Notes under the pieces: generated by a model
Told to the model about the DNA's origin: nothing
Database searches by the model: none
The model's input: only the letters and a program-made list of their open reading frames with translations
Position numbers and translations under genes: made by a program
Origin: an uncultured Marivita sp.
Lineage (GTDB): Bacteria > Pseudomonadota > Alphaproteobacteria > Rhodobacterales > Rhodobacteraceae
DNA length: 64,000 bases
Reading direction: 5' to 3'
Assembly (NCBI RefSeq): GCF_947488135.1
Contig: NZ_CANKYW010000001.1
Span: 930,001 to 994,000, forward strand
Shown: positions 8,326-19,600 of the stretch, piece after piece
How positions within the stretch are numbered: position 1 is the first letter of the stretch
Layout of the letters: every line of letters begins with the position of its first letter

Positions 8326-9906
8326 TTGACGCAGAGGGATCATCGAAGTCATCACCACGCTCACGAAGCACGCTGGAAGACCTTCAAGAAAAAGGAAACC
8401 GGGCTTCCTTCGTACAAACCCAAGCATTTTGCCAAGTTGCAGCAGAGACTGAGCGGCCGTGTTCAGGTGGCCGGGGCGCCTGGATACAATGATGATCGCA
8501 TGGTATTCATGCACACCTACCAGCAATATCCGCAGGTCATCGTCTTTTGTGAATGCGAGACCGATGTCGTCGCTGCATTGAAATTCGCGAAGAAATCGAA
8601 ACTTCAGGTAACGGCCCGGTCGGGGGGACATTGCACCGCCGGCTATTCGGTCAACGATCAGGTGGTGATCGACACGTCCGGCCTGAACCACGTGATCGTC
8701 GACGCGGACACTCCAAGCGTGCGTTGTGGCCCCGGCGTGACCTTTCGCAAGTTGAACCGGGTTTTGGAGTACCACAAGCTGCATCTGCCCGGCGGCGGCT
8801 GCGAAACGGTCAATGTCGCGGGCTACATGATGGGCGGGGGCTATGGCTTCACCTCGAGGCTCTTCGGCATGAATTGCGACCGGGTGACGGGGGTGCGCAT
8901 GGCGCTGTCAAATGGCAGCATTGTCACGGCGAACGCTAAGGAGAACGAAGACCTGTTCTGGGCCGTGCGCGGGGGTACCGGCAACCAGTTCGGTATGCTG
9001 CTCGAAATCGAATACGACCCGGTGCCGCTGAACCGAAAGTTCTTCGGCTTCGGGCTGCGCTGGAACATGCGTCACAAGCACGAGGCCGATATCGATAGGG
9101 TTTGCCGGGTGCTGGAGCACTTGCAGGCGGAATATTCGAATTCCGGGCCGCCCAAGATGGGCCATCAGGCGCTCTTGATGTATCTGCCGGACGCCGACCA
9201 CCCGGATGGGCAAATCCCCTGCCTGTCGCTGCGCGGGCTCTATGACGGCTCGCGCGATGAAGCGAAACCCGCGCTTGGCCCTTTGCTCGATACACTCGAA
9301 GACCCACGCAAGGACGTCGAGATCTGGACGCGCAAGCATCGGTACACGCGGCTGAACGAAATGCTGCTTCAAACCGTGAACCCGCCCGGAATGGACATGC
9401 CGAACGTATCGATGAACACCAAGCCGCTGGTCGAAGGGTGGCTGATCGACGAACATCATGCGGCGGATCGGTGGCGCGACGTGGTGGAACATTTTCTGAA
9501 CGCGCCCGACAAGACCTGTTTTATCGCGTTGGAGTTTTACGGAGGGGCGATTGCCGAACCGAAACCCACCGACATGGCCTTTGTCCACCGCGACCCGTCC
9601 GTCGATATGTTCAGCTGGGCGTTCTGGACCTTTGACAGCCACAAACAGGCGAGCATCGACTGGCTCGACGGTCTTGGCGAGATCGCCAAAGGCATGGGGA
9701 GCGGGCGGCGCTACCAGAACTACCCGCGGCGCGGGACCAAGGATTTCCTGACCGCCTATTTCGGGGAAAACCTTCCGCGCCTGCAAGAGATCAAGGCCAA
9801 ATATGATCCGGACAACATGTTCTGGTTCGAACAAAGCCTCGGGCCCGAACCTCTCCCGCGTGACAAAAGCGCAGAGAAGAAAGCCAAGAACGCGGAGCCT
9901 GCCTGA
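8326..9906 (+). CDS. BBE-type FAD-linked oxidoreductase, predicted bicovalent flavin
   Basis: A 526-residue flavoprotein of the berberine-bridge-enzyme/PCMH family. The TTG at 8326 is proposed as start because GAGGA lies 8 nt upstream and the frame contains no earlier convincing site; a GTG at 8173 would read through the hairpin at 8192. The FAD-binding part contains RSGGH (His102, for the 8-alpha bond) and GGGCETVNVAGYMMGGG (Cys159, for the 6-S-cysteinyl bond), so both covalent flavin anchors are present. The C-terminus has a BBE-like YFGENLPRLQEIKAKYDPDNMF segment. No signal peptide is seen. Its stop overlaps the start of the next gene, so it belongs to the quinone-oxidase operon. Family members oxidise alcohols, sugars or aromatic metabolites; the substrate here is unknown. 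Confidence 0.85.
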   Translation: MTQRDHRSHHHAHEARWKTFKKKETGLPSYKPKHFAKLQQRLSGRVQVAGAPGYNDDRMVFMHTYQQYPQVIVFCECETDVVAALKFAKKSKLQVTARSGGHCTAGYSVNDQVVIDTSGLNHVIVDADTPSVRCGPGVTFRKLNRVLEYHKLHLPGGGCETVNVAGYMMGGGYGFTSRLFGMNCDRVTGVRMALSNGSIVTANAKENEDLFWAVRGGTGNQFGMLLEIEYDPVPLNRKFFGFGLRWNMRHKHEADIDRVCRVLEHLQAEYSNSGPPKMGHQALLMYLPDADHPDGQIPCLSLRGLYDGSRDEAKPALGPLLDTLEDPRKDVEIWTRKHRYTRLNEMLLQTVNPPGMDMPNVSMNTKPLVEGWLIDEHHAADRWRDVVEHFLNAPDKTCFIALEFYGGAIAEPKPTDMAFVHRDPSVDMFSWAFWTFDSHKQASIDWLDGLGEIAKGMGSGRRYQNYPRRGTKDFLTAYFGENLPRLQEIKAKYDPDNMFWFEQSLGPEPLPRDKSAEKKAKNAEPA

Positions 9907-11726
9907 TGATCGATGACACCCCTCCCATCTGCACTCATGCCGACAGCGACACCTGCGCCTCTTGGTGCGGGCGCGATCCGAAACAGGGTCGTCTGCTGGG
10001 CATCTTCTTCGACCCACCCATGGCCATAGCCCGCGTCGGCGGATCGAAAGAGCCGATGCCCGCCTACCGCTGGAAACTCGACGAGAACCCGGCGCGCGGT
10101 GTGCAAACGATGATCGAGCCCGCACCGAACCTGATCGAGACCTCGGTCAAGGGCCACGGCCACCACCCCTTTACGCTAAAGGTCGAAACCCCGGATCAGG
10201 TCACGTTCAAGGACCGTCACGGCAAGATCAAACCCGTCGCCCCGTTCTTCGAGCTTTGGGCGCGGGTGCAGGACGGCGTCGGGACCGTGGTTAAGGTACC
10301 GGTCACTGAGGCGTTCCTGAAGGCGCGGGGGACGTCGCTGAAACACCTGCGTTTCACGGTGATCGCGGCCAACCGCAAGGCCGAGGCGCGCACCAAGCTG
10401 GCCTCGTGCGCGGCCATCGCGCGCAAGGTGTTTTCGGCCGACAGCTACAAGACCCACCATCTCGACGCGATCAGCCCGCATACCGAAGGGCAGGTGCCGC
10501 TGGTGCGCGAGGATGCCCCTCTTCCGCTGGGCAAGATCCGGACGTACAAGCCGAACCTCGACGATCCCGATTGCCAGACGCGGCTCGATCAGATCCGCCT
10601 GCGCTTCATTCCCGGCAAGGGCGATGCCTACGGTCCGCCCGAGGCATCCAAAGCTCCGGCTTCGCCTCTGCCGCCCGGAGCCTTTGCGCCAGCGGTCACG
10701 GAATACGGGCGCATCCACAAGATGACCCGAAAGGAGAACCGCATCCTGAGTTCCGACACACCGTGGTCGGGCTACAATTTCCGCACCGACAACGCACCCA
10801 AATGGCCAACCCCGATGGACAGCTACGACGGCGCACGGGTTGGGTCAGGCAACAGCTGGGGGCTGATCGACGACACCTGCGATCTGGTGCTGACGGCCGA
10901 GCTCGCCATCGATGGCGTGTCCCATACGGCGCAAGCGCGGTCGATGGCAGGGCCGCCGGATTTCGCGCCGGACAAGCGCCCGATGTATTCGATCAAGGAC
11001 GAACTCGAGGACCGCGACTTGCCGCCAGCAGAGCTGGATATCGACAGGACGCCGGTAGAGATCCTCGACCTGTTCCGCCGGATTTTCGAAACCGCGAGCC
11101 TCGTGAACCTCGACCAGCGGCGATCCTGGGCACTGGACGGCAACGCGCAACTGTTGGCCGAACCGGACGAGAACGATCCCGATTGGGACGCTGGCCTGAC
11201 CCCTCGGCTAGGCCCGAAATCCATGCGCGAGGATGATGCGCCCTTTGCGAGCCTCGTGCCGGAATACACGCCGGGGCAGGGCGATACGATCGAGCCGCGG
11301 TCGGACGCGCATGACCGCTTGCCCTACACGCAAGTGGTGCAGCAGGTCCATGCGCGCATGTGCGACAGCCCGATCCTTCGCGCCTTTCTGGTTCGTGACC
11401 CCGACCGCGTGCGACGCATCATTCGACCCCCCTTTGCGCATGTCGGCGAACTGCCGAAGATCCCGGGCGTGCAGCCCGATCCGGCGGTCGATTTCGGCGG
11501 ACAGGACGGTCTCGACGATATCACCTACCGCGACCCGCGCGCGATCAAGGCTCAGACATATGACATGCGGATGCCCCCCTACATGCGCCATTCGATGGGC
11601 GTACCGCTGTCGGTCACGCGTCGGCAGTACGATTTGCTGATGGCCTATCTCAACAAGCTGGAGGGTGATTGGAAACAGACCGTCCAGCCCGAACTGGACA
11701 CCAAGGAAACGGAGGCCGGGACATGA
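9906..11726 (+). CDS. LodA/GoxA-like N-terminal half protein
   Basis: A 606-residue protein, translationally coupled to both neighbours (TGATG at its start, ATGA at its end). Near the N-terminus, PPMAIARVGGS resembles the HPAIGxARxG opening of LodA/GoxA amino-acid oxidases, and a following segment (VTFKDRHGKIKPVAPFFELWARV) also fits that region. The C-terminus (MGVPLSVTRRQYDLLMAYL) resembles the LPLTxxQYxxL segment that lies in the middle of LodA. The cofactor-bearing second half of LodA is absent here but present in the next gene. Several cysteines lie at the N-terminus (CTHADSDTCASWC). I infer it is the structural subunit of a split LodA-like oxidase. The homology is read by eye and is remote. 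Confidence 0.6.
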   Translation: MIDDTPPICTHADSDTCASWCGRDPKQGRLLGIFFDPPMAIARVGGSKEPMPAYRWKLDENPARGVQTMIEPAPNLIETSVKGHGHHPFTLKVETPDQVTFKDRHGKIKPVAPFFELWARVQDGVGTVVKVPVTEAFLKARGTSLKHLRFTVIAANRKAEARTKLASCAAIARKVFSADSYKTHHLDAISPHTEGQVPLVREDAPLPLGKIRTYKPNLDDPDCQTRLDQIRLRFIPGKGDAYGPPEASKAPASPLPPGAFAPAVTEYGRIHKMTRKENRILSSDTPWSGYNFRTDNAPKWPTPMDSYDGARVGSGNSWGLIDDTCDLVLTAELAIDGVSHTAQARSMAGPPDFAPDKRPMYSIKDELEDRDLPPAELDIDRTPVEILDLFRRIFETASLVNLDQRRSWALDGNAQLLAEPDENDPDWDAGLTPRLGPKSMREDDAPFASLVPEYTPGQGDTIEPRSDAHDRLPYTQVVQQVHARMCDSPILRAFLVRDPDRVRRIIRPPFAHVGELPKIPGVQPDPAVDFGGQDGLDDITYRDPRAIKAQTYDMRMPPYMRHSMGVPLSVTRRQYDLLMAYLNKLEGDWKQTVQPELDTKETEAGT

Positions 11727-13564
11727 GTGTCGAAGCAAAACCCACCGGTCCGAAGCAGATGAACCTCGCGCCCGCACCCGATCCGCGCGGCAATCCTGCC
11801 TATCCCGAACCGGTGCTGGGCAATCCGGTGTCGACCTTGATGGAATCCGGGGTCGGCAATTGCTTTCCGGGGCTGGAATTCGACGTTCGGCAACTCGACG
11901 TGCGGTTCTTTCCGGGACTGGTTTTCGAGTTCCTGGGCGTCACCCCGGCAGGGCCGGACGGCACGCAGGGCGCACGGCTGGTCTATTCCGATCCGGCGGG
12001 TGATCCGATCATCGCCGATCACTTCACCGCTGATGGGCCACAGTGGATCACGGACCTGAAAAAGCAGTTTGCAGGGCCCGAAGGATCGGCGCTGGGCGAT
12101 GGCACGTGGTATCTGCATTTCGTCGAACAGGACGGCAAGCGGATCATGATGTACGATTACGCGCTCTACCAGAACGCGGCGGGTCTGACCCCGTACGAAG
12201 GCGAAACCGTCTGGTGGATCATCCGTCTGATCGAACCGGACAAGCCGCTGACCATCGCCCTGACCCAGCGCGCGGCGGATGGCTCCCCCAGCGGCGTTCC
12301 GGTGGTCCTGACCGGGCGCCGTCGGCAGTTTCTCAACGATGAAGGGATGATCGACCCGGTTTATCATCCTGGTGAGCTCACCTCATCGATGTGCAGCCCG
12401 TGGACCCATGATTTCCGCGACTGCGCCTGTCACTACTGGGCCTCGAACCACCCCGATGTGGTGCTGGGCGAGGTGGACGACCCGCAGCAGCAACTGGACA
12501 ACCGCACTGACGAGAACGACGCGGCGCAGGCCGTGACCTTCATCGATTGGATGCGTCGGCGGCACGAACCGCTCAAGGATGTGTCCGCGCAGACGACTTT
12601 GCCCAAAGCAAGGCCGGACCGCTATGATCCGTACGAAATCAACCTGCACTGGCAACAGCTCGATTTTGTGTTGCAGGGACAGGAGGCCGAGGCGACGCCG
12701 CCCGTGCCGCAGATGCTGAAGCTGATCAAGTACGAGACGCTGGAAAAGATGGTCGCCGACCTGAGCGAGAAATTGGCCGGGATGGAGCTGACGCTGGCGA
12801 TGGAATATCTCTACGCGTATTTCAGCCTGCGAGAGCCGGACGAGGTCACGGCCGAGGAAGAAACCAAATGGCCAGGCCTGCGCGAGGACCTGCACGCGGC
12901 CCGCCAACTGATCCTGTCCGTCGCGCTGAGCGAGATGACCCATCTGCGCTGGGTCAACCAGACGCTCTGGTTGATCCATAAGGCCTATCCCCGTTTAGGG
13001 CCGTATAAACCCTGCCTCACGGCGGCCAAAACGATCTCAGAACCGGACCCCGCCACGCCCGACATCGAAAAGACCCGCGATCGGCGACTGTGCCGCGCAA
13101 CGCAGGTCGTGCTGCAAGGCTTTGTCGATGTGGAACGGCCGGACGGGCCTCTTGATACCGAGTACGTCAACCTCGTCGGCCTGTTGCGCGAGTCGAAAGA
13201 ACCCTTCCCCGAAGGTCTGTACCAACTGGCCGTCCGCATCGACAGCGACGGGATGCAACACTACCAGAAGTTCCGCGATGTAATGCGCTTCCTCGCGCCC
13301 TACGCGGAGCAGGAGGCGCTGTATCTGCGTCCGATCAAGGAAGGCAACGCGACGTCGCCCGAGGTCAAACCCGCATTGGACCAGATCAGAACGGCGCTGG
13401 ACGGCCTTGCCGAAGCATACGCAATCGAGGCCGAACTTGGCGACATGCCAAAAGCCAACGCCAAGATCAAAGAGGCACGGGACGCGATGCACAGGCTCAA
13501 CGACATCGCACTCGGCTTGGCGCGCAAGAACATCGGCGTTCCGTTCTTCGCGGTGTTCGAATGA
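11723..13564 (+). CDS. LodA-like cofactor half fused to a ferritin-like domain
   Basis: A 613-residue protein overlapping its upstream neighbour by ATGA. Residues ~40-285 match the second half of LodA/GoxA: NCFPGLEFDV, then PWTHDFRDCACHYWASNHPDVV (~226-247). In LodA, Asp512 and Cys516 (DxxxC) and Trp581 build the cysteine tryptophylquinone. Here Asp230 and Cys234 keep that spacing, and Trp276 (FIDWMRRRHE) is the likely Trp, with a shorter 42-residue gap. Residues ~340-600 resemble a VioB/RebD-type ferritin-like domain, with Glu361, Glu404, His407 and His513 as possible metal ligands (MEYLYAYFS, LSEMTHLRWVNQ, GMQHYQKF). I have not seen this fusion described. No signal peptide is seen. The quinone cofactor is inferred. 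Confidence 0.65.
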   Translation: MSVEAKPTGPKQMNLAPAPDPRGNPAYPEPVLGNPVSTLMESGVGNCFPGLEFDVRQLDVRFFPGLVFEFLGVTPAGPDGTQGARLVYSDPAGDPIIADHFTADGPQWITDLKKQFAGPEGSALGDGTWYLHFVEQDGKRIMMYDYALYQNAAGLTPYEGETVWWIIRLIEPDKPLTIALTQRAADGSPSGVPVVLTGRRRQFLNDEGMIDPVYHPGELTSSMCSPWTHDFRDCACHYWASNHPDVVLGEVDDPQQQLDNRTDENDAAQAVTFIDWMRRRHEPLKDVSAQTTLPKARPDRYDPYEINLHWQQLDFVLQGQEAEATPPVPQMLKLIKYETLEKMVADLSEKLAGMELTLAMEYLYAYFSLREPDEVTAEEETKWPGLREDLHAARQLILSVALSEMTHLRWVNQTLWLIHKAYPRLGPYKPCLTAAKTISEPDPATPDIEKTRDRRLCRATQVVLQGFVDVERPDGPLDTEYVNLVGLLRESKEPFPEGLYQLAVRIDSDGMQHYQKFRDVMRFLAPYAEQEALYLRPIKEGNATSPEVKPALDQIRTALDGLAEAYAIEAELGDMPKANAKIKEARDAMHRLNDIALGLARKNIGVPFFAVFE

Positions 13565-14880
13565 CCTCGGTCTTTCCCAAGCCGGAATCACGGCCGAGTG
13601 CGCTGGCCCATGTCGCGGGAGACGTGCTTCTGATGGCCGACACCGCCGCGATCTTCGGTCTGTCCGAGGCTGATGCGCGCCGGTTGCGCCACGCCTTGCA
13701 GACCGGTGATACAGCGGCGAGGGCAGAGCTGGCGCGGCTTAGGCTTGACACTCCGATGCAGGCGCGCCCGCCGCGCGTCACTGTCCATCCCGTGCGGGCG
13801 CTGGCGCTGACCGTGTCGCAGACCTGCAACCTCGCTTGTGGCTATTGCTACGCCGCCGGTGGAAGTTTCGGCGGGGCGGACACGCGGATGAATTGGGATG
13901 TGGCCAAGCGCGCCATCGACCAGCTGATCGTCGGAACCGTGCCCGGAGGCGGGGTCAAGATCGCCTTCATGGGGGGCGAGCCAATGGTTGTCCGTGACCT
14001 GATCCGCAAGTCGGTTGCCTATGCCAACGAACGTGGGGCCGCGCGTGCCGTGCAGGTGGGCTATTCGCTTACGACCAACGGAACGCTGATCACACCCGAG
14101 GATGCCGCCTTCTTCGCCCGTCACCGTTTTGCCGTCACGGTCAGTCTGGACGGAGGACGCGAGGTGAATGACCGTCTTCGCCCCGACAAGGCTGGAAAGG
14201 GCAGTTTCGACCGTGTCGCACACCGGATTGCGTCCTTGCTCAAGCAGCGCGAGCGGGTTCAGCTGAGCGCGCGGGTGACGGTGACACCGCTCAATCTGGA
14301 TGTGCGCCGCGTGGTCGAGGATATCGGCGCGCTTGGCTTCACCTCGGTCGGCGTGGCCCCGATGATCTCATCCCCCACTGGCAAGGGCGCTCTGGTCGGT
14401 GAGGATTTCGCGATGCTGCTGGACGCGATGAAAGCCTGCGGCGATGCGTGGTTCGATGCGGTGAGTGGGGGTGGCGATCACGCCTTCGCCAACCTGGCCA
14501 CCGTTCTGGGCGAGTTGCACCGCGGTCAGCCGCGCAGCCACGGCTGCGGTGCCGCGCGCGACTATCTGGCGGTAGATGCCGATGGCGCCTATTCGGCCTG
14601 TCACCGTTTCGTCAAGGATCCGCTTGGCGCCATGGGCACGCTCGAGTCGGGACCCGACGATGAGGCCCGCGGCGCTTTTCTGGACGCGCGGACAGTCGAA
14701 CGGCAAAGCCCGTGCCAAACCTGCTGGGCACGCAGGCTCTGTGGCGGCGGGTGCCATCAGGAAGTCCTGCACGCCGGTCGTCCCGCCTGCGATTTTGTGC
14801 GCGGGTGGCTCGATTATGGATTGCGAACCTACAAGCGGATGCAGGTCGCGCGCCCGGACTGGTTCGATGCACACTCATAG
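13561..14880 (+). CDS. Radical SAM/SPASM protein-modifying enzyme
   Basis: A 439-residue protein starting in an ATGA overlap with the LodA-like/ferritin gene. Cys89, Cys93 and Cys96 form the radical SAM CxxxCxxC motif (TCNLACGYCYAAG), followed by MGGEP. The C-terminus is a SPASM domain with auxiliary-cluster cysteines (HGCGAARDYLAVD, YSACHRF, CQTCWARRLCGGGCHQE, CDF). This SPASM pattern is typical of peptide and protein maturases, including QhpD, which makes thioether links in quinohemoprotein amine dehydrogenase. Its substrate is most simply one of the two Cys-rich LodA-like proteins encoded immediately upstream. Known LodA systems need only a flavoprotein, so a radical SAM enzyme here is an extra maturation step. 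Confidence 0.87.
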   Translation: MTSVFPKPESRPSALAHVAGDVLLMADTAAIFGLSEADARRLRHALQTGDTAARAELARLRLDTPMQARPPRVTVHPVRALALTVSQTCNLACGYCYAAGGSFGGADTRMNWDVAKRAIDQLIVGTVPGGGVKIAFMGGEPMVVRDLIRKSVAYANERGAARAVQVGYSLTTNGTLITPEDAAFFARHRFAVTVSLDGGREVNDRLRPDKAGKGSFDRVAHRIASLLKQRERVQLSARVTVTPLNLDVRRVVEDIGALGFTSVGVAPMISSPTGKGALVGEDFAMLLDAMKACGDAWFDAVSGGGDHAFANLATVLGELHRGQPRSHGCGAARDYLAVDADGAYSACHRFVKDPLGAMGTLESGPDDEARGAFLDARTVERQSPCQTCWARRLCGGGCHQEVLHAGRPACDFVRGWLDYGLRTYKRMQVARPDWFDAHS

Positions 14881-16276
14881 AGCCGACGTCGCGGTGCTGG
14901 GCGCTGGTCCAGCGGGCTGCGTCGCTGCGCGTCATTTGGGTCAGGCCGGTGTCGACGTGATATTGGTCGATGGTGCGATTTCGACCGGCAGTCACCACGT
15001 CGAGAGTTTCCCGCCGTCGGGTGCGCCCCTGGCCGAAGATATCGGCCTGCTTTCCACAATCTGCGCCGCCAGCGACGGTCCGGCTTCAGCCATGATGATG
15101 AACTGGCGCGATATGTCCGAGATCCGAGCATTTGAGGGAGATGGCCCCCTGCTGCTGCGACGTGAGGCCTTGCACAGTGCTCTCCGTGCGGAAGCCGGCA
15201 TGCACGCGCGCATGTTGCAAACGCAGGTGCGCAAGATCGTGACGAGTGACGATGCCGCCGAAATGACGACGGATGAAGGGGCGATCATCTGCCGAATGAT
15301 CGTCGATGCGCGTGGGCGTCGCGCGCTTAAACGGCAAGGCTCCGATCTTGTCGCGCTTCCTTTCGATGCGCGCGGCGATGTTCCGGACTACACAATGTGG
15401 CTCGACGCTTTGCACAACGGGTGGCTGTGGGCCGCCAGTCTGGGGGGTGGTGAAATCCACGGGGCGATCTTTCAAAAAGCATCTGCTTTGGCCGGGTTGT
15501 CCTCTCAAGGCAGGCGAGCCCTCGCGCGGCACCAGCTTCTTCATGCGTCGGCTTTTTCGAATGCCTGCGATTTGTCCGTCGGCCCCCCTGCCGCGGCAGG
15601 ACTTTCGGCCATGCGTGACCCTGTCCAGTCGCCTCGCCATGTGCTTATCGGGGATGCCGCGCTCGCGCGCGATCCGATCGCGTCGCACGGTTTGGTTCAT
15701 GCACTGCGGAGCGGTGTGCAGGCGGCGGTTGCTGTGCGTACGATCCTCGATCCAACGGGGGATACGCAAGCAGCCCTCGCGTTTCTGCGCCAAAAACACG
15801 TCGAAGCCGTATCAAGCGCGCGTGAGGCGACGGCACGGGCCTATCGCGATCAATCCCGGTTCACCGGGCCATTTTGGGCAGAGCGCAGCGAAAGCATTGA
15901 TGCGAAAACCGCTCCGCAGATCGGGTCTGGGCCTGTCACTCTGGCTGACCCATTGACCCGGGCGCCGGTCCTCGAAACCGACAGGATTCGATGGGCACCC
16001 GCGATCGCTCTTCCCGCGCAAAACAGCTTTTTCACCCAGCACGGAACCGTCACCGCCCGCGACATCGCCGTCGCCTGCCGACCGGCGGCCCCGTTGCAAG
16101 AGATTGCAACGCGTCTGGGGCGGGTGCACGCGATGCCAATTGTGTTCGATGTCTTGCAACATCTCACGCTCGGCGGCGCCTTCGCTCAGGCCGTGCCGTT
16201 GCCGTCCAACAAGCCGTGCGCGCGAGTCACGTCCCATCCATCATCAAGGGAAATCATGCGGGACAACGTATCCTGA
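14867..16276 (+). CDS. LodB/QhpG-like FAD-dependent maturation flavoprotein
   Basis: A 469-residue flavoprotein whose ATG lies inside the end of the radical SAM gene. The N-terminus is a GxGxxG FAD site (VLGAGPAGC, residues 10-18). A second FAD motif reads IGDAALARDPIASHGLVHAL, as in the tryptophan halogenase/geranylgeranyl reductase-like group that includes LodB and QhpG. Those proteins hydroxylate the precursor tryptophan of CTQ oxidases, which fits the quinone-site protein two genes upstream. The last ~100 residues have an extra helical part (VTARDIAVACR...) of unknown role. The 3' end overlaps the convergent cyclase gene by 91 bp. Confidence 0.78.
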   Translation: MHTHRADVAVLGAGPAGCVAARHLGQAGVDVILVDGAISTGSHHVESFPPSGAPLAEDIGLLSTICAASDGPASAMMMNWRDMSEIRAFEGDGPLLLRREALHSALRAEAGMHARMLQTQVRKIVTSDDAAEMTTDEGAIICRMIVDARGRRALKRQGSDLVALPFDARGDVPDYTMWLDALHNGWLWAASLGGGEIHGAIFQKASALAGLSSQGRRALARHQLLHASAFSNACDLSVGPPAAAGLSAMRDPVQSPRHVLIGDAALARDPIASHGLVHALRSGVQAAVAVRTILDPTGDTQAALAFLRQKHVEAVSSAREATARAYRDQSRFTGPFWAERSESIDAKTAPQIGSGPVTLADPLTRAPVLETDRIRWAPAIALPAQNSFFTQHGTVTARDIAVACRPAAPLQEIATRLGRVHAMPIVFDVLQHLTLGGAFAQAVPLPSNKPCARVTSHPSSREIMRDNVS

Positions 16277-19200
16277 ACCGCTTGTAGTGTTTCGCGGCAC
16301 CGATCATCCTCTGCGATATCGCAGGTGATCCGGAGTAGGATGGACGTCGCATCCGTGGCCTCGGCACGCGCAAGCGCATCGCGCCTAAGCCGGTCCGCTG
16401 TATCTGCATCCCCGCGCGTGGCCGCGACGCGGGCCTGCATGCGCATGAGCTCAGATGACGTCCAGGTCTCGCCGGTTCGGGTTTCGGTGCTCGCCCCTTC
16501 CGCCAAAACGCCATCTGCGGCTTCGATATCGCCTGCGCGCAGGTAAATCTCGGCCAGAACGGTGGCCAGCAAGGGGCCATAGTTGAAGGGGTTTGCGGCA
16601 CGAAACTCGGCGACGCGTTGTTCGAGATCCGCCATCTCGACCGGCGAAGGCGGCTGTGGCTGACGGCACAGGGCGGAAGCGAAGGGGAACAGCCGTGCCG
16701 CCGCCCGCATCACGCTGATACCGTGCTTTTCCGCAACGACCAGCCCCTCAGCCGCCATCTCGGCCAGTTCCGGCCCGTGCCGCGCAAGCGCCCCCCACAT
16801 CACGCGGAACGACACTGCTTGAGCAAGCGAATGCGCGTGGTCGATCTTCCGCGAATGGTCGATGGAAAACGCTCCGATTTGCCGCGCGCGATCAAGATCG
16901 CCGCTGATCCAGAGCGACATCGACAACAGCGCCGCGGTGATCTCGGCGTGATCGTAACCCTGGGCATGGGCAAACGACAAATGCGCGTCCTGATCGTATT
17001 GTCCTAGCGACTCTTCGAGCCTTTGCGTCGCGGTGATCTGGTCGCCCGTGTGCAGGGCCACGGCTCCGATAGCGCGGGTGGCGATCATGACGAAGGTTTC
17101 GTTCTGGGCCAGTTCCGCCGCCGCCAGAAGCGCCTTGGCGTGCTGCTCGGCCTTGGGGTAATTCGCGCGGACCAGCGCGTGAGAGTAGAGACCGTTGATC
17201 GCCAGCAACTCTGCCTTGCGGTCGCCGATGGCGCGCGCCAAGTCGACAGCCATCTGACCCAGTTCGGCGCTCCGGTCGGTCGCGATCCCAAACCGCGACC
17301 GTTCGACCGAGGCGAGCCCGGTTACGGCACGCAATCGCTGTGCGTTGACCTTGGCGCTTGGTGCCAGCCGCGCCAGCGCGCCGTCGGCCATCTCGAAGTA
17401 ATGCCCAGCTTCGACCAAGGCCGAACGCTTGAGAAACGCGTCACCCGCGCTTAGCGCGAATTCCGCCGTGCTTTCCCAATCATGGGCGGCTTGCGCGTGT
17501 TTGGCGAGTATCTCGGGCCGAATGTCGAGCAAATCATGCAAGACACGGAACGCGGATGCATGAAGGGTTCTGCGCACGCGCCCGTCAATCTGTTCGTAGA
17601 TCACGTCCCGGTAGGCCTTGTGACGGATACCGATGGTTTCGGTTCCGTGCAGATTTCGTTTTTCGATCAATCCGCCGGATTCCAGTGCATCGAGCGTCGG
17701 TTCCATGCGGTGTGCATCCAACGGGTATAGTCCGGTCAGCACATCGAGTGGTACGTGCGAACCAAGAACGGCAAGCGCTTCGATCAGGCCGCGACCGGAT
17801 TGGATTTTGTCCAACCGTTTGGACACGGTTTCGTAGATCGTGTGGGGAACCACGACGGCATCGGCAACTTCCGGCAGTTCCTGTCGCGCTTGTGCCTGCG
17901 CCAGCGTGTTGAGCATCAGCGGGTTGCCGTCCGCGTGGTAGAGGATGTTGTCCCGTACCGCGTCGGGAATGGGCGCCCCGGCAAGAATTCGGTTGAGAAG
18001 CCGGGTCGCATCGGCCTTGGACAAAGGCGGCAAGGTGATCTGTCGATGGGCCGCGGCGTCTTGCCAGATGTCGTTCGCATCGTCCCGCGTCACCGCGATC
18101 ATCAAAAGCGGCGCGCTGGCGGCACGCGCGGTTTCTGCGGTCTGCGCCATCAGAGCACGGGTCGAGTCGTCCGCCCATTGCGCGTTTTCGAGCACCACGA
18201 CGCCGGGGGTCTTGCCGTCCCCGACGAACCAACCACTGAGCAGCTCGAGGACCGCGTCGCGATCGTTTTTCGAGATCGCGGCAGTACCTTCGGATGTTTC
18301 ACCGAGGTCCAGAAATTGGGCTACCTGGTCAGCCATCTCAGCCGTGGGAGCGGTCAGAACACTGGCGAGCGATGGAGCCGCGTCCTTGGATGCCGTCAAT
18401 TGCGCCAACGCATTTGCAACCGGCTGCAAGGGCGATTGCGCGGACATTGCACTGCATTGCAGATGGATCGCCCGGGCCGGGGCTGTTACCGCGTCTGCGA
18501 GAAAACTTTGAACCAAAGTCGATTTTCCGAGGCCCGCATCCCCGGAGACGGTCACTGTTTTGGCCCGTCCTGTTTTCACGCTTTCCCAAGCATGGACCAG
18601 CGCTTCAATCTCTGTGGCACGTCCCACGAATTGCGCCGGTTTGAGCGGGGCTTGCATGGCATTTCGCAGGCCGACCAGATGGTAAACCTCGACCGGATCG
18701 GACAGCCCTTTCAGGGCGTGGCGTTCGGCATCCGTGTAATGCACGGACGCCTGTGTCAGGTCTCGCGTTTTGAAGTCTACCGCGCAGGATTGCGGCTGTG
18801 CGATGGTCTGAAGCCGGGCCGCGCGGTTCACGACCGGCCCGACCAGATGCATCTGATCCCCGGATCCGTCGCTGTGCTTCAGTCCGACGGCTGCCTGGCC
18901 GGATGCGATACCGATCCGGGTGACGATGTGGATGGGGTCATGGCTTTCGATCGTCACTGGTGTTTTGGCCAGCGTGGTTTGCAAATCCCGGGCCGCCAGC
19001 ACGCATCGTTCGGCGAACCCGTCCAGGACCTTCGGATAGCCGAACAGAATGACAAGCCCGTCGCCCTGCGGTGTAGCCAAATGGCCGTTGTGCCGACGGG
19101 CCACGGTTTCCGCGACAGTGTAATAATGCTGAAGAACGATCTGCATTTCGTCGATATCGAGCCGTTCCCCAAGCTCGGTCGACCCAACCATGTCGCAGAA

Positions 19201-19467
19201 AAGCACGCTCAGTCGGCGCAACTGAACCGGGTTTGTGCCGGGCAGAACAGTGGAGGTGGCACTCGGGCCTGCGTCGCCGTTCAGGGATTGAAGCCCTTTC
19301 AGCAGTTTCCGCCGCTGGCCAAGACTGAGTCCAAGCTCCTTGAGATCGCCGTCATCCAGCAGCGGCAGCACCGTCATGTCGATATCTTCCGCGGTCAGCC
19401 GCTCCTGCAAGTGCAGCAGATCGACTTGCGCCAGAAAGTCAGACAACTCCAGTGATGTGGCAGCCAT
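16186..19467 (-). CDS. SAM-domain/class III nucleotidyl cyclase/AAA ATPase/TPR signalling protein
   Basis: A 1093-residue protein; ATG 19467 is taken as start, with an in-frame GTG at 19485 as the alternative. Residues ~5-65 are a SAM-type helical domain (DFLAQVDLLHLQERL, DLKELGLSLGQRRKLL). The class III cyclase follows at ~85-260: LSVLFCDMVGSTELG, PQGDGLVILFGYP with the second metal Asp, and VVNRAARLQ with the transition-state Asn and Arg. Then comes a P-loop ATPase (SGDAGLGKSTL) and, to the end, helical TPR-like repeats. It probably makes cAMP or cGMP in response to a protein or ligand signal. Three cNMP-binding membrane proteins lie just downstream in genome order, so their ligand may come from this enzyme. 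Confidence 0.87.
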   Translation of the reverse strand: MAATSLELSDFLAQVDLLHLQERLTAEDIDMTVLPLLDDGDLKELGLSLGQRRKLLKGLQSLNGDAGPSATSTVLPGTNPVQLRRLSVLFCDMVGSTELGERLDIDEMQIVLQHYYTVAETVARRHNGHLATPQGDGLVILFGYPKVLDGFAERCVLAARDLQTTLAKTPVTIESHDPIHIVTRIGIASGQAAVGLKHSDGSGDQMHLVGPVVNRAARLQTIAQPQSCAVDFKTRDLTQASVHYTDAERHALKGLSDPVEVYHLVGLRNAMQAPLKPAQFVGRATEIEALVHAWESVKTGRAKTVTVSGDAGLGKSTLVQSFLADAVTAPARAIHLQCSAMSAQSPLQPVANALAQLTASKDAAPSLASVLTAPTAEMADQVAQFLDLGETSEGTAAISKNDRDAVLELLSGWFVGDGKTPGVVVLENAQWADDSTRALMAQTAETARAASAPLLMIAVTRDDANDIWQDAAAHRQITLPPLSKADATRLLNRILAGAPIPDAVRDNILYHADGNPLMLNTLAQAQARQELPEVADAVVVPHTIYETVSKRLDKIQSGRGLIEALAVLGSHVPLDVLTGLYPLDAHRMEPTLDALESGGLIEKRNLHGTETIGIRHKAYRDVIYEQIDGRVRRTLHASAFRVLHDLLDIRPEILAKHAQAAHDWESTAEFALSAGDAFLKRSALVEAGHYFEMADGALARLAPSAKVNAQRLRAVTGLASVERSRFGIATDRSAELGQMAVDLARAIGDRKAELLAINGLYSHALVRANYPKAEQHAKALLAAAELAQNETFVMIATRAIGAVALHTGDQITATQRLEESLGQYDQDAHLSFAHAQGYDHAEITAALLSMSLWISGDLDRARQIGAFSIDHSRKIDHAHSLAQAVSFRVMWGALARHGPELAEMAAEGLVVAEKHGISVMRAAARLFPFASALCRQPQPPSPVEMADLEQRVAEFRAANPFNYGPLLATVLAEIYLRAGDIEAADGVLAEGASTETRTGETWTSSELMRMQARVAATRGDADTADRLRRDALARAEATDATSILLRITCDIAEDDRCRETLQAVQDTLSRMISLDDGWDVTRAHGLLDGNGTA

Positions 19468-19600
19468 GCAGGAGGTCGTCTCCACGTCATAGTCAGGGGG
19501 TCAAGCGTGTGACCTGACAGGAAAAATCTACACCAAGACAGGTACGTGTTGCAAACGCCGTGATGTCGAGTTTCATCTTGTCCGCTGATTTTGGAACCGG

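Follow-up and report, generated by a model that had tools for sequence, protein, structure and literature searches.

In the 64,000-nucleotide window analysed here (positions 930,001 to 994,000 of contig NZ_CANKYW010000001.1, assembly GCF_947488135.1, from an uncultured Marivita sp.), five consecutive open reading frames (ORFs) on the forward strand, each overlapping the next according to the ORF reading and the junction bases, form an operon predicted to encode a split LodA/GoxA-like quinone oxidase and its maturation enzymes. Gene A (8326-9906) encodes a BBE-type flavoprotein of about 526 aa (Pfam FAD_binding_4, 7.8e-28; BBE, 6.8e-16), and its TTG start is preceded by GAGGAA and agrees with the homologue in locus L020. 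Gene B (9906-11726) encodes the N-terminal half of a LodA/GoxA-like protein (606 aa), and gene C (11723-13564) encodes the C-terminal LodA-like half joined to a ferritin-like domain (613 aa) and is the predicted carrier of cysteine tryptophylquinone (CTQ). Gene D (13561-14880) encodes a SPASM radical SAM enzyme that resembles QhpD and is a predicted Cys-Asp thioether synthase, and gene E (14867-16276) encodes a QhpG-like flavin adenine dinucleotide (FAD) monooxygenase matched by FAD-binding Pfam models and predicted to be a Trp dihydroxylase. The five proteins were compared with Pfam and NCBIfam models, whose cut-offs are the family thresholds, and the ORFs and both model sets bear out the five overlapping genes read in the first-pass annotation.

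For B and C, the Pfam models of LodA were matched below threshold. B matched LodA_N at E 0.0073 (16.8 bits, cut-off 26.3), C matched LodA_C at 24.6 bits (cut-off 25), and in 56 homologues of C, LodA_C was found in 46 and the Ferritin-like family in 55. When all PDB sequences were searched with a profile built from 36 B proteins, GoxA and LodA accounted for every one of the 11 matches (E 4e-6 to 3.6e-5), and with hhalign a profile of nine ordinary LodA-like proteins aligned with B at a probability of 98.2 and with the cofactor segment of C at 91.9 (E 7e-7). In two Bacteroidota, Flavobacterium (L094) and Dyadobacter (L095), B and C are a single gene of 764-767 aa, a fusion seen in these two only among the loci examined; within the class of the L094 genome no further fused copy was found besides that genome (1/295). 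Residues 1-474 of the 764-aa L094 protein correspond to a separate B and residues 484-753 to a separate C (51-58% identity to two plasmid records, from Mycetohabitans and Bradyrhizobium), and residues 656-692 align without gaps on residues 491-527 of the LodA structure 3weu, where the counterpart of Cys234 of C falls on LodA Cys516. Since the B/C split is common to most family loci examined, and since B and C are one gene in the two Bacteroidota, the split is real and not a sequencing error. Judged from these alignments, B and the first half of C are one LodA-like protein cut in two, as had been suggested at first reading: homology to both the N- and C-terminal regions of LodA/GoxA is present, and in the window it is divided between two genes and not carried on a single polypeptide.

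The family was surveyed in 90 distinct loci (window and repeats excluded), consisting of the best 80 of 222 stretches encoding C relatives from one scan of species genomes and ten plasmid loci (10 of the 18 plasmid records with a match); residue counts were made over 92 loci, two of which, L119 and L120, duplicate L018 and L026. Residues 224-245 of C (12392-12457) form the cofactor segment, which reads C224-SPW-TH-D230-FRD-C234-A-C236-HY-W239-ASNHP-D245. C224, D230, C234 and C236 were kept in 92/92 loci, and W239 and D245 in 91/91, one locus ending before them. The pattern used to locate the segment for this count required D230 and C234. The patterns of the scan itself spanned residues 227-234 or 235-243, one sufficing per locus, with C224 and D245 outside both, and the ten plasmid loci (L007-L016) were gathered without residue patterns.

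The same order of residues is found in QhpC, the gamma subunit of QHNDH (C27, D33, C37, C41, W43 and D49 in the numbering of 1jju_C). C224/D230 pairs with C27-D33, C234/W239 with C37-W43, and C236/D245 with C41-D49; an excerpt of PMC7876137 describes C37/W43 as the CTQ pair and C41-D49 as a thioether. A regular expression for the cross-link pattern, run over 6401 mechanical ORFs, gave 101 matches, of which 97 were family copies (repeats included), four were QhpC and none was any other protein. These QhpC-type cross-link residues, which account for the radical SAM gene in the operon, had been overlooked at first reading. QhpC also has the bonds C27-D33 and C7-E16. By analogy with the latter, C47 and E52 of C (11861-11878) are a weak candidate for a third, Cys-Glu cross-link on the basis of residue conservation (E52 in 88/88 readable loci, C47 in 85/88); in the six LodA-like copies shown to carry F-x-P-G-x-E, the C47 position is occupied by F.

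W239, five residues past Cys234, aligns in hhalign with the Trp of the LodA-like motif W-P-A-x-x-P. By this alignment W239, and not Trp276, appears to be the counterpart of the LodA-family quinone Trp. Trp276, 42 residues from the Cys, had been put forward in the first-pass annotation as the candidate quinone Trp, and it was rejected since it is W in 54 of 65 homologues and F in the other 11, while W239 is invariant. The 65-residue Cys-Trp spacing of LodA was likewise discarded as a yardstick: in nine LodA-like proteins the spacing ranges from 5 to 35, so the short spacing in C is not odd. The proposed match of Asp230-x3-Cys234 to LodA Asp512/Cys516 held, the motif being present and its Cys being tied to Cys516 through the L094 counterpart. 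The same annotation had made its reading depend on the conservation of Cys234, Asp230 and Trp276, and variation was found for Trp276 alone, the other two being conserved throughout the family loci. C thus carries both the Asp-x3-Cys with an aligned Trp that marks LodA/GoxA and the QhpC-type residues in order.

The best NCBIfam model for D was TIGR03906 (QHNDH maturation), with 304.4 bits against a cut-off of 453; this model matched 38/38 D proteins scanned and was the best one in the four listed in full. D matches Pfam Radical_SAM and is a SPASM-type protein with CxxxCxxC (C89, C93 and C96) and seven more cysteines, all invariant in the 38 aligned, and in the D tree, which has a single long outgroup, three QhpD proteins fell outside the 38 D proteins (support 90/98). 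D was present in 85/90 family loci, and the remaining five are cut by the contig end beside C. The best model for E was QhpG (NF049967, 222.5-223.3 bits, cut-off 240), followed by GoxB (81.6) and LodB (45.9); in the E proteins scanned, the QhpG model matched 36/36, GoxB 32/36 and LodB 27/36. A QhpG-related flavoprotein was found in 84/90 family loci. In the E tree, the nine LodB-like proteins formed one clade with the E of the window outside it (key fork 89/80). E is thus not a flavoprotein of the LodB/GoxB type, and its identification as a plain LodB was rejected by score and by tree, the key fork having only 89/80. The earlier proposal of a radical SAM enzyme and a LodB/QhpG-like flavoprotein as two likely maturases is supported; the QhpD and QhpG models are the best ones, both below their cut-offs.

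Four gene arrangements were distinguished. The order of the window, A-B-C-D-E (type I), was present in 24/90 distinct loci, so that other genomes with the five-gene order, for which the first-pass annotation had suggested looking, do exist. The order B-D-C-E (type II) was found in plain form in 37/90 loci. In type III, C is short and lacks the ferritin domain, with a separate upstream ferritin-like gene in L012, L015 and L016 and none recognised in L013, L014 and L096, and type IV has the order ferritin-(BC fusion)-D-E (L094, L095). Other loci were variants or truncated contigs. The type II E proteins of actinobacteria and some cyanobacteria are divergent and branch closer to LodB. Occurrence in the genus of the window is patchy, since a full match was found in 3/17 genomes; a fourth genome has a LodA-like protein only. 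An even draw from the phylum gave 1/398 genomes, the window's own. In L029, C is present and neither A nor B was recognised in 9 kb upstream. The gene in the B position of L008 (L008:2977-4611) has a low B score (256 bits; most others >340) and is annotated as ferritin-like, possibly a rearranged or fused B.

The ferritin-like helical domain of C (12740-13525) scored 34.4 bits against PF12902 (cut-off 22.3), which places it in that family and confirms the fusion claimed for C. Its residues E355, E404xxH407, E471 and H513 were kept in 60/60 rows holding the domain, and a Foldseek search with the C model retrieved ferritins, with 3hl1 from Caulobacter as the top match (E 3e-3). PF12902 is the family of VioB-type ferritin-like proteins. 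It occurs as a separate upstream gene in L012 and L094, and a PF12902 gene (L111:11363-12865) adjoins the ordinary LodA-like gene of L111. The ferritin-containing C profile matched this gene and also L113:7211-8554, likewise beside an ordinary LodA-like gene; Pfam PF12902 was confirmed for L111 alone. Caulobacter, the source of 3hl1, is among the control genomes, and LodA_C has a match there too. Gene A was found in 30/96 loci, only within the A-B-C-D-E arrangement or pieces of it. It contains the motifs RSGGH and GGGC, presumably the His and Cys sites of a bicovalent FAD. The string GGGC-x-[TS]-V was present in 16/30 A copies, five others being fragments and nine being full-length without the exact string; the BBE flavoprotein claimed as first gene of the operon is confirmed, and a bicovalent FAD is predicted for part of the copies.

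Nine ordinary LodA-like loci, each 19.9 kb long (two sources, eight and one), were compared with the family as a control. Asp, Cys and Trp were kept in 9/9, position 224 was A or G in 9/9, and position 236 was never Cys. The B profile matched 9/9 of the LodA-like genes and the C profile 6/9 at E 1e-3, and an E-like flavoprotein gene adjoined the LodA-like gene in 9/9. No D-like gene was found in the nine loci. The one radical SAM gene among them (L110:4029-5546), 2.4 kb from the LodB-like flavoprotein gene, scored 96 bits, where complete D genes reach 487-633, and was rejected as a D homologue, being a HxsB (His-Xaa-Ser system) maturase (549 bits, cut-off 370). In a LodA-like 1199-aa ORF from the same genus as the window (L118:8530-12129), the Cys-Trp spacing is 5 and the motif WWPAQRPD is nearly that of QhpC; this locus has neither the cross-link cysteines nor a D-like radical SAM gene. 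Across the loci compared, presence of the extra cysteines thus coincides with that of the D-type radical SAM gene, a pattern among related sequences and not an independent count.

For the A-E operon, the product is probably a split CTQ oxidase of the LodA/GoxA family, formed by B and the first half of C, with a cofactor segment matured as in the QHNDH gamma subunit. By analogy with QHNDH, D would form the thioethers Cys224-Asp230 and Cys236-Asp245, and perhaps also Cys47-Glu52, E would hydroxylate Trp239, and Cys234 would couple to Trp239, with oxidation yielding CTQ. B and C would together build a single active site of the LodA type, in which Asp230 would act as catalytic base, and the enzyme would deaminate a primary amine or amino acid and release H2O2. 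The fused ferritin-like domain, likely a di-metal site, and in type I the BBE oxidase A may act on the product or on the peroxide; these roles, the chemistry and the nature of the substrate are suggested by comparison with related enzymes.

Several results weigh against this reading. LodA_C is borderline (24.6-26.5 bits around its cut-off of 25), and in the PDB search with the C profile LodA came up at no better than E 0.33. Among the Foldseek matches listed for the two separate half models (best 50 of 278 for one and best 50 of 742 for the other) there was no LodA or GoxA, so the outcome that the first-pass annotation had named as refuting it, predicted structures unlike LodA, was seen in part, for models of the halves. 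This miss was given low weight because the halves were modelled apart (mean predicted local distance difference test (pLDDT) scores of 81 and 75 for the two models) and because the cofactor loop, residues 224-242 of C, has pLDDT <50. The QHNDH alpha chains 1jju_A and 1jmx_A, at Foldseek ranks 3 and 12 for B, had TM-scores of 0.06-0.12 and were taken as noise. In addition, D and E both lie below the equivalog cut-offs of QhpD and QhpG, PapB and other thioether models match all 38 D proteins as widely as the QhpD model does, E was not recognised in L061, and C47 is missing in 3/88 loci. Whole-length hhalign of family C against QhpC gave no in-register match, only a chance match outside the motif, and profiles of the family motif reached QhpC only at E 0.01-8. 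The cross-links, the quinone and the activity are moreover assigned by analogy, from knowledge of the QHNDH and LodA families.

Three other explanations were weighed. Maturation could follow LodA, with Trp276 as the quinone Trp, one-step hydroxylation by a LodB-like E, and the radical SAM enzyme acting elsewhere; Trp276 is after all Trp in most homologues, and E is related to GoxB and LodB as well, but the Phe found at that position, the invariance of Trp239 with its alignment to the LodA-like Trp, and the score of QhpG over GoxB and LodB make this highly improbable. D could instead cross-link the segment towards an end product other than CTQ, for instance a scaffold of the ranthipeptide kind, a protein with a structural or metal-binding role, or a Trp that is hydroxylated without becoming a quinone. 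The matches of D to PapB and other thioether maturases, the poorly modelled cofactor loop and the very divergent type II E proteins would suit such a product, whereas the retention of all three CTQ-site residues (Asp, Cys and Trp) and the QhpG-related flavoprotein at nearly all family loci would not, and we consider it quite doubtful.

A further explanation makes the ferritin-like domain the main catalyst, which would couple or oxidise an imine released by the CTQ half, so that the operon would encode a biosynthetic enzyme and not a peroxide-making oxidase. VioA and VioB in violacein synthesis are the model for such coupling and oxidation. The domain is fused in types I and II or encoded by a separate upstream gene (L012, L094), its five putative ligands are kept in every row holding it, and type I has the BBE oxidase in addition. 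However, the LodA-like gene of L111, an ordinary one, likewise has a PF12902 neighbour, an excerpt of PMC4417212 places such genes near fungal LodA-like ones, and the domain may be a generic accessory; apart from gene F (below), flank families are not widely recurrent in the 30 A-bearing loci. This explanation is regarded as unlikely, with a somewhat better prospect than the two before it.

Compared with known systems, the family shares with LodA/GoxA the homology in both halves, PG-x-E, PW-x2-D-x3-C, the quinone Trp and the adjacent flavoprotein; ferritin-like PF12902 genes lie near some LodA/GoxA members, whereas the domain is fused in the C of the window. It differs from LodA/GoxA in being encoded by two genes (one in L094/L095), in the extra C224, C236 and D245, in the radical SAM maturase, in a flavoprotein nearer to QhpG than to LodB, in the fused ferritin domain and in the Cys-Trp spacing of 5. 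With QHNDH (QhpC/QhpD/QhpG) it has in common the pattern Cys27-Asp33, Cys37-Trp43 and Cys41-Asp49, the QhpD-like radical SAM enzyme and the QhpG-like monooxygenase; unlike the 79-residue QhpC subunit, the segment lies in a LodA-like protein, with spacings of 5 versus 6 (Cys-Trp) and 9 versus 8 (Cys-Asp). PF08992 (QHNDH gamma) had no match in the window's own genome and none in 14 control genomes, and matched in 4/142 genomes of the class. Relative to VioB-type ferritin-like proteins (PF12902; 3hl1), the domain family and the metal-ligand pattern are the same, and in the window the domain is fused to a quinoprotein half. Campillo-Brocal et al. 2015 (PMC4417212) collected their LodA-like groups I-V in BLASTP searches with LodA/GoxA at 1e-10; these groups belong to the same superfamily, with lodB-like neighbours, ferritin-like genes in fungal loci and tyrosinase and multicopper oxidase neighbours; the excerpt of that paper mentions neither radical SAM enzymes nor a split LodA. 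In the open-access literature, no radical SAM-matured or split LodA was found among the matches listed.

The gene set seems to combine parts of two enzyme families thought to have invented CTQ separately; an excerpt of PMC7876137 (2021) describes markedly divergent strategies and convergent evolution for protein-derived quinone cofactors. The family may instead be an evolutionary bridge between the two CTQ families, CTQ having arisen once and radical SAM cross-linking being a separable maturation layer. The QHNDH gamma subunit would then descend, in miniaturised form, from the cofactor segment in the C-terminal part of LodA, or else be its forerunner. In ordinary LodA/GoxA, thioether cross-links and radical SAM enzyme would either have disappeared or never have been acquired. 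This is proposed because the first seven non-QhpC matches of a QhpC profile over the 6401 ORFs (six distinct proteins, the L005 match being the L118 gene) were all LodA-like or family proteins (E 0.04-0.8), because hhalign of LodA-like proteins against QhpC aligned the same residues (E 6e-4, probability 28%), and because DFYQC-HTH-WWPAQRPD of L118 resembles DLYGC-SDPC-WWPAQVPD of QhpC. The two comparisons given above in which C or its motif profile met QhpC poorly or out of register weigh against a single origin as well, which is held tentatively, as an idea nearly as apt to be right as wrong. This widespread family joins a LodA-like body to a segment that resembles QhpC and presumably depends on a radical SAM enzyme, and it cuts across the division into divergent strategies and convergent origins. 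Related proteins with and without thioether cross-links offer a test of a single origin of CTQ and of what the cross-links add to a quinone enzyme, and many unstudied oxidases with fused di-metal domains are indicated in marine, soil and plant-associated bacteria.

Downstream of the operon, gene F (16186-19485, reverse strand), with sterile alpha motif (SAM), nucleotidyl cyclase and AAA ATPase domains according to Pfam, converges on E. It lies beside the operon in 22/22 A-bearing loci with >2 kb past E, converging in 21 and on the same strand in L022, and is a probable regulator or conserved neighbour. Clustering of the flanks of the 30 A-bearing loci gave no other widely recurring family. Three loci with ordinary LodA-like genes (L115, L117 and L118) have relatives of F close to them as well. 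In L013, a Mesorhizobium plasmid, genes for multicopper oxidase and tyrosinase come after the split-LodA/radical SAM set, neighbours that the excerpt of PMC4417212 also reports for LodA group ID. In L009 (Rhizobium) and L015 (Bradyrhizobium), genes encoding a C25 family cysteine peptidase and a small hypothetical protein were observed near the operon.

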